A DNA stretch of 32,640 nt, taken from contig JAGFND010000014.1 of assembly GCA_021409285.1 (NCBI GenBank), positions 1-32,640 on the forward strand, read 5' to 3'. The translations under genes were made by a program, and so were the position numbers. The notes beneath the pieces were generated by a model, which was not told where the DNA came from, did not search any database, and was given only the letters and a program-made list of their open reading frames with translations. How positions within the stretch are numbered: the stretch's first letter is position 1; the number at the start of each line of letters is the position of its first letter. Positions 26,546 to 31,617 of the stretch are shown here, piece after piece. This DNA is from Candidatus Methanoperedens sp. (GTDB lineage: Archaea; Halobacteriota; Methanosarcinia; Methanosarcinales; Methanoperedenaceae).

Positions 26546-27037
26546 ATGTCAAAAAAAATTATATTGTTAATATTCGTTATATCAGTTCTTTTTATATCTG
26601 GATGCGTTGATAAAAATACAGGCTTGCCTCAGACAGCTGACTCTGAACTCATTCCACAGATAAATCTGCCTGAAGGCTTTTCTTACATAGGCCTCCATGA
26701 AACCTCAGTGGATATTAGCGGCTCATCAGAGAAAGCTCTGGAGGGTAGTTATAGATATAATGGGGATGACATCTATGTACAGACAATCAGAAGCAACGAC
26801 ACTGCATCGCTTATTCAGAAATATAAAGATATTTATAAAGATGCCAATTACAATCCATTCGAGGAAGTCTCATTTAACGGGCATAAAGCTACTCAGATCA
26901 AATTTTATGTGACTGACTATCGCGGTCAACAGCCGCGTTATACGCTAATATGGGCCGCAAAAGAACATATGATAATTGTTGGTTCATTATCGGATAATAA
27001 AACCGTGATGACTCTGGCAATAGCAACACGTTATTAA
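26546..27037 (+). CDS. Putative membrane lipoprotein, 163 aa
   Basis: MSKKIILLIFVISVLFISGC is a lipoprotein signal with lipobox FISGC (Cys20), so the mature protein should be tethered to the outer face of the membrane. The rest is a small domain with alternating strands and helices (INLPEGFSYIGLHETSVD, YRYNGDDIYVQTI, HKATQIKFYVTDY, EHMIIVGSLSDNKTVM). It is similar in feel to archaeal lipoproteins of unknown role; no enzymatic motif is visible. The ATG at 26546 is fixed by GGAGATGATT upstream, so the in-frame ATG at 26528 is rejected. It converges on queE with a 4-bp overlap. Confidence 0.75.
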   Translation: MSKKIILLIFVISVLFISGCVDKNTGLPQTADSELIPQINLPEGFSYIGLHETSVDISGSSEKALEGSYRYNGDDIYVQTIRSNDTASLIQKYKDIYKDANYNPFEEVSFNGHKATQIKFYVTDYRGQQPRYTLIWAAKEHMIIVGSLSDNKTVMTLAIATRY

Positions 27038-27762
27038 AGAATGCCGATCATTTTGTGCGTTTGGGGGATGGAACGCACATATTTCAATTTTTCAGCTGCA
27101 AAATCCATGAGTCCAAGAAGCAGAATTGGAGCCACTTTTCTTTTCTGAGTGACAGGTTGAAGTATAAGAGGAATATCCCTGTCTATCGAAGCGATACCTT
27201 CAACTGCCATCGATATCGATTCTTTGGTAGTTTCGGGAAGGACTATTATTTTCACAAAAGTCTCAGCAGTCTCGTTGAAAATGGAGATCGTCTCAAGCTC
27301 ATTTTTCAGCAATTCGCTGTAATGATCCGTTGAGTTATGTTCAGGCAATTTGATATCGCATGAGGCTATTGCAATTTTGTCTTTTAATTCCCTCGCTTTT
27401 TCAGGAAATCCTGAGTTCGTTTCAAGGTATAATGGAAATTCAAGATCAAGTGACCTAATAAAATCTGCATGGATGAGCGGTTCCCCGCCTGTGAAACTGA
27501 TATGCTTTGTAGAAGGAGACCATAAACTCCTTATCAAGTCTTCAAGATCTTCCCCTCTGACAGGATTAGCGATATCATAGAAATCATTTTTTCCAGGTGT
27601 TCTCTCTATCCTGCATTGGCCCCCTGCAATCCTGCTATTGGGGGTGTCACAATATGCGCAATGAAGCTGGCACTTAAAAAATCTTACAAATATCTGTCGC
27701 ACTCCAACATAAGGACCCTCTCCCTGTATCGAATTAAATATCTCATCTATATGTGCATACAT
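27034..27762 (-). CDS. queE: 7-carboxy-7-deazaguanine synthase (QueE)
   Basis: Radical SAM enzyme that makes 7-carboxy-7-deazaguanine from carboxytetrahydropterin; in archaea this feeds archaeosine (position 15 of tRNA). The cluster motif is KCQLHCAYCDTP, Cys31-x3-Cys35-x2-Cys38. The early EIFNSIQGEGPYVGVRQIFV is diagnostic of QueE. SFTGGEPLIH is the SAM-binding GGE motif and SCDIKLPEH a later one. The length of 242 aa is usual. It lies 18 bp after ftsZ at the end of the operon. Confidence 0.93.
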   Translation of the reverse strand: MYAHIDEIFNSIQGEGPYVGVRQIFVRFFKCQLHCAYCDTPNSRIAGGQCRIERTPGKNDFYDIANPVRGEDLEDLIRSLWSPSTKHISFTGGEPLIHADFIRSLDLEFPLYLETNSGFPEKARELKDKIAIASCDIKLPEHNSTDHYSELLKNELETISIFNETAETFVKIIVLPETTKESISMAVEGIASIDRDIPLILQPVTQKRKVAPILLLGLMDFAAEKLKYVRSIPQTHKMIGIL

Positions 27763-27780: not shown

Positions 27781-28872
27781 CTATCTGACGAAATCTATTC
27801 CATATCTTGCTGTCGAAATATTTGCCTTCGAATTTTTCCCGAGTATCTGAGGAGATTTGACGCCTGTAACAACGATCATGGTGCGGATAATATGCTCAAG
27901 TTCCGGATCTACCATCGCACCCCAGATCAGCCTTGCCTTTGGATCTATTCGGGTGTAAAGCTCGTTCACTACGCTTTCGGCTTCTGAGATCGTCATGTCC
28001 GGGCCGCCAACGACATTCACGAGGGCACCTGTTGCACCTGAAACATCAACATCGAGCAAGGGGCTGCGAAGCGCTTTCTGAATGGATTCTATGGCTTTGT
28101 TCTCGCCTTCGGCTTCACCAAGACCGATCATAGCAACACCGGATTTTTGCATAATAACCCTGATATCAGCAAAATCAAGATTCACAAGACCGGGTTTGGT
28201 GATAAGCTCGGTGATACCTTTAACTGCTCGCATGAGCACCTCATCGCATACCTTAAACGCAGCCTGAAGTGGTAGATGCGGAACTACCTCCAGCAATTTA
28301 TCATTGGGGACAACGATTACAGTATCTACCACATCGCGAAGCCGCTCAAGTCCTGCTTCGGCATTTTCCATACGGATCCCGCCTTCAACAGAGAACGGAA
28401 GAGTCACGACAGCTATGGACAGCGCTCCGGCATCGCGTGCAATTTCGGCAACTACTGGCGCTGAACCTGTGCCTGTTCCGCCGCCAAGACCACATGTGAT
28501 AAATACCATATCTGCATTTCCGACCGCCTTCTCGATCTGTGCTTTTGACTCCTGTGCAGCATCCTGGCCTATCTGTGGAATGCTTCCTGCACCAAGACCC
28601 CTTGTTCTGCTTCTACCAATGAGGATTTTCTTTCTGACCTTAATATTTAGGAGATGCTGGGCATCTGTATTTAAAGCATACAATTCAGCGCCAAATATTC
28701 CTTCCTCTGACATCCTCTGGATTGTATTCGAACCTGAACCTCCGCATCCTATTACAGAAATGTTCGTCTTTAGTTCCTGCAATATTGAAAGAAGTTCCTC
28801 ATCCGTTTCACCGACAATGGGAATCTTAGATTCACCAGCTCTTGAAATTGCCTCAGTTATTATTGATTCCAT
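27781..28872 (-). CDS. ftsZ: Cell division protein FtsZ (FtsZ1 type)
   Basis: Tubulin-like GTPase that forms the division ring. The GTP-binding signature [17 protein letters not shown] holds GGGTGTG at 130-136. [18 protein letters not shown] and [11 protein letters not shown] are the other nucleotide contacts, and [14 protein letters not shown] is the T7 synergy loop. The N-terminus [10 protein letters not shown] and the conserved KTNISV resemble haloarchaeal FtsZ1 as recalled; the short C-terminus YGIDFVR fits. In archaea with two FtsZs, FtsZ1 organises the division site and FtsZ2 constricts. It follows the dtdA fragment by 10 bp and a PRC-barrel gene further upstream. Confidence 0.95.
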
Positions 28873-28882
28873 TTATTATCCC

Positions 28883-29122
28883 TCAATCACAACTCAATCG
28901 TATGATTCTTTTATTAGTTTCATATACCATTTCTGGATTTATAGTTTTTCCATCTTGATATAAAAGTGGCTCACCTATTACAAAAATTCGAAGATCCCTG
29001 TATTCAAAGATCGAATATTTATTATCCGGAACGTGCTCCCATTTTCTGAGAGCCAGGAGGTTCTTCTTTATATTCTGGCTGGCCCTGTCCTGAGTTGAAC
29101 AAATTATTGTGTTCAAACTCAA
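28883..29122 (-). pseudogene. dtdA: Truncated D-aminoacyl-tRNA deacylase (DtdA), N-terminal piece
   Basis: 79 residues from a TTG start. The sequence TIICSTQDRASQNIKKNLLA followed by LRKWEH and, near residue 57, LLYQDG matches the N-terminal region of archaeal DtdA (GEK1 family), which hydrolyses D-aminoacyl-tRNAs. Full DtdA is over 250 residues and next carries a block around FASRH and HxTGN; none of it is present. After QDG the sequence (KTINPEMVYETNKRII) departs and stops 10 bp before ftsZ. It overlaps the PRC-barrel stop by 4 nt. Either a deletion remnant or a reduced stand-alone protein. Confidence 0.65.
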
Positions 29123-29382
29123 TCAAAATCGTTACCAGTTACCATCTTTTTATCTACGATGGCGTAATCCTTTGCCGCCCTTACAGCCTCAAACGGTATC
29201 ATTACGTAATTATCCTGTGTTTTATATTTTGATGTATCCACAGTGGGGCCAGGTTTGACCAGTAGATATAATAAAGCTCCGCTTTGCATGTCCATAACAA
29301 CATTGCTGGCAAATCCCAATTCAGATCCGTCAGTAAGCATTACCCTTTTGTTTGCTAAAGTTTTTGCGAGTATTTTTGCCAT
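29119..29382 (-). CDS. PRC-barrel domain protein, 87 aa
   Basis: A single PRC-barrel domain: KRVMLTDGSELGFASNVVMD is the strand-turn typical of the family, followed by LLYLLVKPGP and VMIPFEAVRAAKDYAIVDKK. Stand-alone PRC-barrel proteins of this size (CdpB) were recently shown to be part of the haloarchaeal division machinery with SepF and FtsZ. Its position two genes before ftsZ1 in the same operon supports a similar role here, but this is inference. It lies 21 bp after cdc48 and overlaps the dtdA fragment. Confidence 0.85.
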   Translation of the reverse strand: MAKILAKTLANKRVMLTDGSELGFASNVVMDMQSGALLYLLVKPGPTVDTSKYKTQDNYVMIPFEAVRAAKDYAIVDKKMVTGNDFD

Positions 29383-29403: not shown

Positions 29404-31617
29404 TTATCTATAACCTATATAAGACTTCTGTTCCTGTTTTGTTCCACCTTTGAATTGCTCCTGCAGCTTCTCATAATATTCAACCATGTCTTCCACAAGA
29501 GCGGGTCTGACCTTCTTCAGAGCTGCACGAAAGTGGCTCATTTCAGTTTTCTTTATTTCGAAATCTTCTCGCAGAGCGAGCATCACAGCCTCCCTGCATA
29601 GTGATTCGATATCTGAACCAACATAATTTTCAGTAAGATCTGCGAGTTCTTCAATATTCACATCATCTGAACGTGGGATGTTTTTGAGATGGATATTAAA
29701 TATCTCGATCCTTCCAGCTCTTCCTGGAGGTCCAACAAATATCAACCTGTCAAATCTTCCTGATCGGATAAGTGCAGGATCAATTATTTCAGGTCTATTT
29801 GTCGCAGCGATCACTACAACGTTTTTCAGTATCTCAATACCATCAAGTTCCGTAAGCAATTGATTGACAACACGTTCGGATGCTTTTGTACCAAAATCCA
29901 TTCCCCTGATAGGAGCTATGGCATCAAGTTCATCAAGGAAAAGAATGCACGGTGCCACCTGTCGAGATTTCTTGAAAACTTCCCGGATCGCCTTTTCAGA
30001 TTCTCCCACCCATTTGGATAAGAGTTGAGGCCCCCTTATACTAATGAAATTAGCTGAGCTCTCATTCGCTGCGGCCTTGGCAAGAAGAGTTTTTCCAGTT
30101 CCAGGCGGACCATAGAGCAAAATACCTTTTGGCGGACGGATTCCCATTTTCAAGAACTTTTCCGGATTGTTGATAGGCCATTCAACAGATTCGATAAGTT
30201 CCTGTTTTGCCTCATCAAGTCCACCAACTTCATTCCATAAGATCTTGGGAATCTCAACAAGCACTTCCCTCATCGCAGATGGTTCGATATCTTTCAGAGC
30301 GTCCTCAAAATCATTAGCCGTAACCTGCATGCTATTAAGTATCTCACGTGGCACTTCCTCATCCAACTTGATCTTTGGTAGATATCTTCTCAGGGCTTTC
30401 ATTGCAGATTCTCGGGCAAGGGCACAGATATCCGCCCCTACGAAACCATGTGTCTTTTCAGCGATCTCCTCAAGGTTAACATCTTTTGATAACGGCATGC
30501 CACGTGTATGTATCTGAAATATCTCTAATCTCTCCCTTCTATCAGGAACACCGATTTCTATCTCGCGGTCGAACCTTCCGGGCCTGCGAAGCGCCGGATC
30601 GATCGCATCAATGCGATTTGTTGCACCTATCACAACAACCTGGCCTCTTTCTTCAAGGCCATCCATCATGGTAAGCAGCTGAGCGACAACCCTTCGTTCC
30701 ACTTCACCTGTCACTTCTTCTCGCTTGGGAGCGATCGAATCCAGTTCATCTATAAACATAATAGAAGGAGCTTCCTTGTTCGCCTGTTCAAAGAGTTCAC
30801 GAAGCCTCTGTTCGCTTTCACCGTAATACTTGCTCATTATCTCTGGCCCCGCGATCGAGAAAAAGTTGGCCCCTGATTCATTTGCCACTGCTCTTGCTAT
30901 CAGGGTTTTTCCGGTTCCTGGAGGGCCGTACATCAGAACACCTTTTGGAGAATCAATACCCAATTTCTCAAATACCTCAGGATGCTTCATGGGAAGTTCG
31001 ATCATCTCACGAAGACGCTGGATCTCATCTGTGAGACCGCCAATATCTTCATATGTGATCCCTGTACCTGTGACATCGAGCACGACAGGTTTTTCTCTGA
31101 GTTTTATCTCTGTCGCTTCAGTGATCATAATTATTCCTTCAGGTTCAGCCTCGATAGCTACAAGAGGAATGGTCTGGCCGGTTACCACACGTCCAAGGAA
31201 TGGATGCGCCATTGTGCTCATTACCGGGATTATATCGCCTTTGACCACAGGACGTTTCATTATCTGCCGCTTAACCATGTCCTCAGCATCTCCTCCAAAC
31301 TGGATGGATGTGCCTTCAGGAGGCGCGAGCACGACTTTTTCGGCCATTTTGACATCAGCTTTAGTTATTGTCACATGGTCTCCTATTCCAGCACCCGTAT
31401 TCTGACGGATGAAACCGTCAATGCGTATGATATTCTGGTCCCAGTCTATGCGATCCGCACGCCAGACCTTGGCGGATGTCCGCCTTTTTCCTTTTATATC
31501 AACGATATCACCTGGAGTAAGCTGCAATATCATCAACGTGTGCGGGTCAAGACGCGCTATTCCTCTGCCTGAATCGTTCGGATATGCTTTTGCAACATTA
31601 AGCTGTATCTCGTCCAT
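29404..31617 (-). CDS. CDC48/VAT family AAA ATPase
   Basis: Hexameric double-ring unfoldase that extracts and unfolds proteins for the 20S proteasome. The 737 residues comprise an N-terminal substrate domain (1-185: double-psi barrel start [20 protein letters not shown]) and two AAA modules. D1 has GPPGTGKT 231-238 and IDELD 289-293; D2 has GPPGTGKT 503-510 and LDELD 561-565. The second-region motifs [20 protein letters not shown] and [20 protein letters not shown] are intact. The C-terminus YIGYR is close to, but not exactly, the HbYX proteasome-docking motif. Probably the first gene of the ftsZ operon. Confidence 0.95.

Follow-up and report, generated by a model that had tools for sequence, protein, structure and literature searches.

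The PRC-barrel gene at 29119-29382 of the window, a stretch of 32,640 nucleotides from one contig of Candidatus Methanoperedens sp., is a CdpB2 orthologue located in a cdc48-cdpB2-(dtdA)-ftsZ1-queE cluster, and its product probably acts together with CdpB1, SepF, and FtsZ in cell division. In Haloferax, the action of CdpB2 with SepF and FtsZ is established. A first-pass annotation had proposed the gene as a candidate division partner beside ftsZ1, with a gene in between to which it was described as translationally coupled. The linkage to ftsZ1 and the clustering with CdpB proteins hold, whereas the middle gene and the coupling do not. The features of the cluster are as follows:

29404..31617, (-) strand: cdc48, CDC48/VAT-type AAA ATPase, predicted first gene of the operon (TIGR01243, 1051.6 bits)
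29119..29382, (-) strand: cdpB2, 87-aa stand-alone PRC-barrel protein of the CdpB2 type (open reading frame, PF05239, relatives, PDB, tree, Foldseek)
28883..29122, (-) strand: dtdA vestige, head of ~57 aa joined in frame to a tail of ~23 aa of D-aminoacyl-tRNA deacylase, not intact (tblastn, translations, NF003073, alignment)
28950..28954, (-) strand: dtdA deletion joint, a single GATGG, as against one GATGG at each end of the missing ~1.1 kb in relatives (DNA alignment, translations)
27781..28872, (-) strand: ftsZ1, 363 aa, served by a ribosome-binding site of its own (GAGGGAT) at the vestige end (TIGR00065, PF00091/PF12327)
27034..27762, (-) strand: queE-like radical SAM gene, with which the conserved cluster ends, at the same place in relatives (PF04055, weak QueE models)

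Assignment of the PRC-Barrel Gene to the CdpB2 Type

The 87-codon open reading frame begins with ATG, and its product matches the PRC-barrel domain PF05239 with an E-value of 7e-9 and 36 bits, the curated cut-off being 21. Since this match spans residues 4-77 of 87, the protein consists of a stand-alone PRC-barrel domain. A search of relatives yielded orthologues with conserved sequence in 59 of 60 genomes, at identities of 74-85% within the genus and of 41-62% across family and order. That the sequence has been kept in nearly all of these relatives implies a real gene and not a chance reading frame, and the stand-alone 87-residue PRC-barrel protein described in the first-pass annotation is thereby confirmed. 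Two variants were seen among the orthologues: the gene of genome G010 (L032:1114-1419) contains an internal 15-residue tandem repeat (ELGFASNVVIDTQSG), either real or an effect of the assembly, and in two genomes of family f2 a further copy lies next to the first (L058:6127-7505; L073:7285-8599).

The genome encodes a second PRC-barrel protein on contig C192, between gltX and thg1. In the PDB, the best matches of the window protein were the second half of 8QZO (E 1e-15) and 8ONW_H (E 2e-13), and the C192 protein matched the first half of 8QZO as well as chains A and D of 8ONW. The same two entries, titled as the A. fulgidus PRC1-PRC2 heterodimer (8ONW) and the CdpB1-CdpB2 heterodimer (8QZO), headed a Foldseek search with an AlphaFold2 model of the window protein (mean pLDDT 75.6), with 39-40% identity to the CdpB2-type chains compared to 20% for the other chains. 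To our knowledge, a CdpB1-CdpB2 heterodimer has been solved for A. fulgidus only. Foldseek E-values were 1e-8 for CdpB chains, but 2e-4 or worse for photosynthetic H subunits and 3e-3 for RimM, which rules out an origin from these RNA-related or photosynthetic PRC proteins. A clustering with such families, considered in the first-pass annotation, was found neither in the PDB comparison nor in the tree or the Foldseek search, all of which point to CdpB chains instead.

A maximum-likelihood tree of 86 PRC domains, including both archaeal PRC types, separated the two types with 100/98 support, with one A. fulgidus chain nested in each; within each type it resolves poorly, PRC domains being short. 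The window protein grouped with the A. fulgidus CdpB2-type chain (8ONW/8QZO) and with a Haloferax gene adjacent to that of aIF5B. Next to this Haloferax gene are one for IF-2/aIF5B and one for a PIN-domain protein, and the Haloferax gene of the other type lies between genes for a 733-aa LudB and a TrkA/DHH protein. The genus Haloferax was confirmed by named loci, and the HVO numbers were deduced from neighbors in other Haloferax species: HVO_1963 is aIF5B (PMC3828320), HVO_1964 a PRC-barrel protein (PMC10927574), HVO_1692 the 733-aa LudB (PMC8305020), and HVO_1691 a PRC protein (PMC8406309). From these neighbor genes, it follows that the window gene is the orthologue of HVO_1964 and the C192 gene that of HVO_1691. 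HVO_1691 is taken as CdpB1 and HVO_1964 as CdpB2, the two proteins described in 2024 by Nussbaum et al. and by Zhao et al. (both cited in PMC12186497).

Tree, PDB comparison, and Haloferax neighbors, which go beyond a mere domain match, thus assign the window gene to CdpB2 and the C192 gene to the CdpB1 type. Tree and neighbors likewise rule out a CdpB1 identity for the window protein: it shares its domain with CdpB1 (HVO_1691 type), the other half of the solved heterodimer, yet stands outside the separate CdpB1 clade. Similar to the window protein, CdpB2 of Haloferax volcanii (HVO_1964 type) and its A. fulgidus orthologue are stand-alone PRC barrels of ~80-90 aa, belong to the same clade, adopt the same fold, and occur in genomes alongside a CdpB1 type, SepF, FtsZ1, and FtsZ2. 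They differ from it in two respects. Haloferax cdpB2 adjoins the aIF5B and PIN-domain genes instead of lying in a cdc48-dtdA-ftsZ1 operon, and the window protein has a short acidic tail behind the barrel (TGSDFD/TGNDFD, 29119-29139), which is kept in the genus but missing from the orthologues of other families.

FtsZ1 and Further Division Proteins

The product of 27781-28872 matches TIGR00065 with an E-value of 2e-132 and is one of five FtsZ-family proteins of the genome (PF12327 matches). It is the best match to the FtsZ present in 148 of 148 genomes of the phylum. An ftsZ2 gene is located on contig C23, 3′ of a cdrS-like ribbon-helix-helix (RHH) gene, corresponding to the cdrS-ftsZ2 arrangement of Haloferax (PMC8406309). 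Because FtsZ2 is encoded elsewhere with cdrS, because the window protein is the best match to the universal FtsZ, and because dtdA lies beside this ftsZ in many genomes, we take it as FtsZ1, in agreement with the first-pass annotation. The three remaining FtsZ-family genes are found on contigs C203, C5, and C112 (L035, L036, L037). As SepF is encoded on contig C224, the genome contains all partners, namely a CdpB1 type (C192), SepF, FtsZ1, and FtsZ2.

By analogy with the known systems, CdpB2 would pair with the CdpB1-type protein from C192 as a heterodimer, in which CdpB1 would contact the membrane anchor SepF. The CdpB1/2 assembly may then bring SepF and FtsZ into line in a single division ring, as published for Haloferax, and co-transcription from a shared operon would keep the production of CdpB2 and FtsZ1 coordinated. 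PRC-barrel proteins have been described to form a tripartite complex with SepF, and FtsZ, SepF, and PRC proteins are conserved in most euryarchaea (PMC10936438). The first-pass annotation had regarded the linkage as extending the CdpB connection to a methanogen-related lineage. While the linkage is indeed family-wide, it occurs in a single family, and the wider extension has already been published (PMC10936438).

Gene Order and Its Conservation

The five reading frames from cdc48 to queE lie on one strand. They are separated by gaps of 21, 10, and 18 nt, the first of them between the end of cdc48 and cdpB2, and the only exception is a 4-nt overlap of cdpB2 and the vestige at 29119-29122. In relatives, cdc48 has a conserved upstream box and a TGAGGGGA leader. 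The cluster can therefore be described as cdc48-cdpB2-dtdA-ftsZ1-queE, a predicted operon beginning at cdc48, the gene that the operon of the first-pass annotation had left out.

This order was found in all three genera of the own family and nowhere else among the genomes sampled. PRC gene, dtdA, and ftsZ1 share one contig in 31 genomes of the family, so that the expected synteny is conserved and not unique to the window genome. Within the genus, ftsZ1 follows the PRC gene in 28 of 30 genomes (the own genome and all others that yielded the PRC gene; ftsZ1 was scored within the fetched stretch), and in the other two the stretch ends before ftsZ1. The other two genera, represented by three genomes, have the same gene order; in genus g2, ~2.2 kb separate cdc48 and the PRC gene. 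Outside the family, none of 64 further genomes of the phylum with both genes on one contig had a PRC gene within 10 kb of ftsZ1, the closest distance being 13.9 kb. A PRC-ftsZ1 adjacency as a general archaeal feature is thus ruled out and, being confined to family f1, the adjacency represents no general functional signature.

The commoner neighbor of cdpB2 is not ftsZ1 but cdc48, which lies directly upstream in 14 of the 30 families sampled. For its part, dtdA immediately precedes ftsZ1 at 12 of 20 ftsZ1 loci, drawn from about nine families. In the ancestor of the own family, these two older pairs, cdc48-cdpB2 and dtdA-ftsZ1, were joined. The latter pair fits the report that ftsZ1 mostly occurs with translation genes (PMC8178401), as dtdA serves tRNA proofreading; compared to that pattern, cdc48-cdpB2 is added here on the other side.

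The frequency of the cdc48 pairing, set against an ftsZ1 neighborhood in one family only, would also suit CdpB2 being chiefly a partner of Cdc48, as adaptor or client, with the proximity of ftsZ1 an incidental outcome of a neutral rearrangement of the old cdc48-cdpB2 unit in this family. A synteny of Cdc48 and PRC genes in archaea, i.e., the same neighbor pair, has already been noted and was linked to RNA processing, with no connection to ftsZ1 described in the passage concerned (PMC10470531). Nevertheless, the division role of CdpB2 is proven in Haloferax, where cdc48 is not adjacent. In Haloferax, moreover, the genes bound in their upstream regions by the division regulator CdrS include ftsZ1, cdc48d, proteasome genes, and HVO_1691 (PMC8406309), which suggests a single functional set and not an either/or. 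We therefore regard a predominant role beside Cdc48 as rather unlikely and a division role of CdpB2 with CdpB1, SepF, and FtsZ as the better account of the gene.

Cdc48 itself varies among relatives. In some, the lid of the first AAA domain carries, after IHTRGMP, an in-frame and partly coiled-coil-like insert estimated very roughly at 100-200 aa (L064:4183-6699, L067:8402-11116, L072:7399-10185). Window Cdc48 does not contain it, meaning that its presence varies within one genus. The position of this insert is, in our view, reminiscent of the ClpB middle domain. In another group of relatives, a different insert of ~85 aa occupies the equivalent place in the second AAA lid (L029:2-1354), and split matches point to it in L016, L028, L030, and L031 as well.

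A dtdA Vestige Between cdpB2 and ftsZ1

Between cdpB2 and ftsZ1 lies a 79-codon reading frame with a TTG start (28883-29122), the first 54 residues of which weakly match D-aminoacyl-tRNA deacylase in NCBIfam (NF003073). Comparison by tblastn and with the translations of relatives revealed that residues 5-58 correspond to the DtdA start and the final ~23 residues to the DtdA end, each part being 74% identical to DtdA of a relative, whereas ~380 middle residues are missing through an in-frame deletion of ~1.1 kb. Most relatives have a dtdA of ~460 aa at the same place. When the own genome was searched with a full DtdA of a relative, two pieces overlapping at 28949-28954 were found, but no displaced middle part; one weak match of 40 residues on contig C245 falls within a different frame of 313 aa. 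A relocation of the missing segment to another contig is thereby ruled out. The single GATGG at the joint, compared to a GATGG at both ends of the segment in relatives, fits a deletion between short direct repeats.

At the start of dtdA, further sequence has been lost. In an alignment with relatives, the PRC stop is separated there from the dtdA start by ~28-50 nt, in which a GAAGGCAGTG box is conserved. This box, which looks like a ribosome-binding site of dtdA, is gone in the window genome together with a few leader codons. Since the spacer has been deleted, the stop/start overlap of cdpB2 and vestige is a by-product of decay, recent and not ancestral, and the proposed translational coupling cannot be upheld. 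The PRC gene does stand two reading frames before ftsZ1, as had been stated, but the intervening one consists of the joined ends of dtdA and not of a gene. In line with this, the window genome has no match to PF04414, present in 57 of 60 relatives, and hence no complete DtdA catalytic domain, nor does it contain a PF02580 domain. Judged from its sequence, 28883-29122 is a dtdA remnant and not a separate gene, and a gene for a tRNA proofreading enzyme was lost recently beside a division gene. In the course of this loss, dtdA was deprived of its catalytic body, with the reading frame kept up to the ftsZ1 ribosome-binding site.

An assembly artifact, with an intact dtdA between cdpB2 and ftsZ1 in the real genome, appears improbable. 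It would suit a draft genome of 246 contigs in which no other D-Tyr-tRNA deacylase was found, as well as the presence of dtdA in nearly all relatives. However, this would require the further loss ahead of the dtdA start to be an error too; no other contig carries the missing part, and dtdA is independently damaged in genomes G029 and G002. That the frame, still open after the deletion and similar to DtdA in its head, is translated into a functional microprotein of 79 aa between CdpB2 and FtsZ1 is highly doubtful, as it consists of the joined dtdA ends, has lost ribosome-binding box and leader codons, occurs in this form in no relative, and owes its similarity to the recency of the loss, dN/dS being uninformative because dS is saturated.

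Damage to the dtdA gene next to ftsZ1 recurs within the genus (L029:1690-2340, L006, L004), with the end on the ftsZ1 side retained. In G029, several deletions have left a still in-frame gene of 216 aa; in G002, the gene is truncated to 280 aa; in G006, it has a frameshift close to the 3′ end.

Implications for Archaeal Cell Division

As its parts are already known (CdpB2 in Haloferax and in most euryarchaea), the cluster represents a new arrangement of known parts. Two features are new as far as the literature search shows, namely that the two gene pairs have become joined in this family and that dtdA is broken. With the vestige recognized, a spurious gene is removed from between cdpB2 and ftsZ1. 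For a lineage on which no division studies were found in the literature searched, the cluster provides genomic support that CdpB2 and FtsZ1 belong together. It is also conceivable, albeit improbable at present, that cdc48, cdpB2, and ftsZ1 form one working unit, in which CdpB2 would serve Cdc48 as an adaptor or be its substrate, and Cdc48 would unfold or remodel the CdpB/SepF/FtsZ ring. If this were true, the cdc48-cdpB2 pair would be an ancient trace of ATP-driven divisome turnover in archaea. Through the widespread but unstudied pairing of the two genes, it would become possible to test directly whether the Cdc48 unfoldase takes part in archaeal division.
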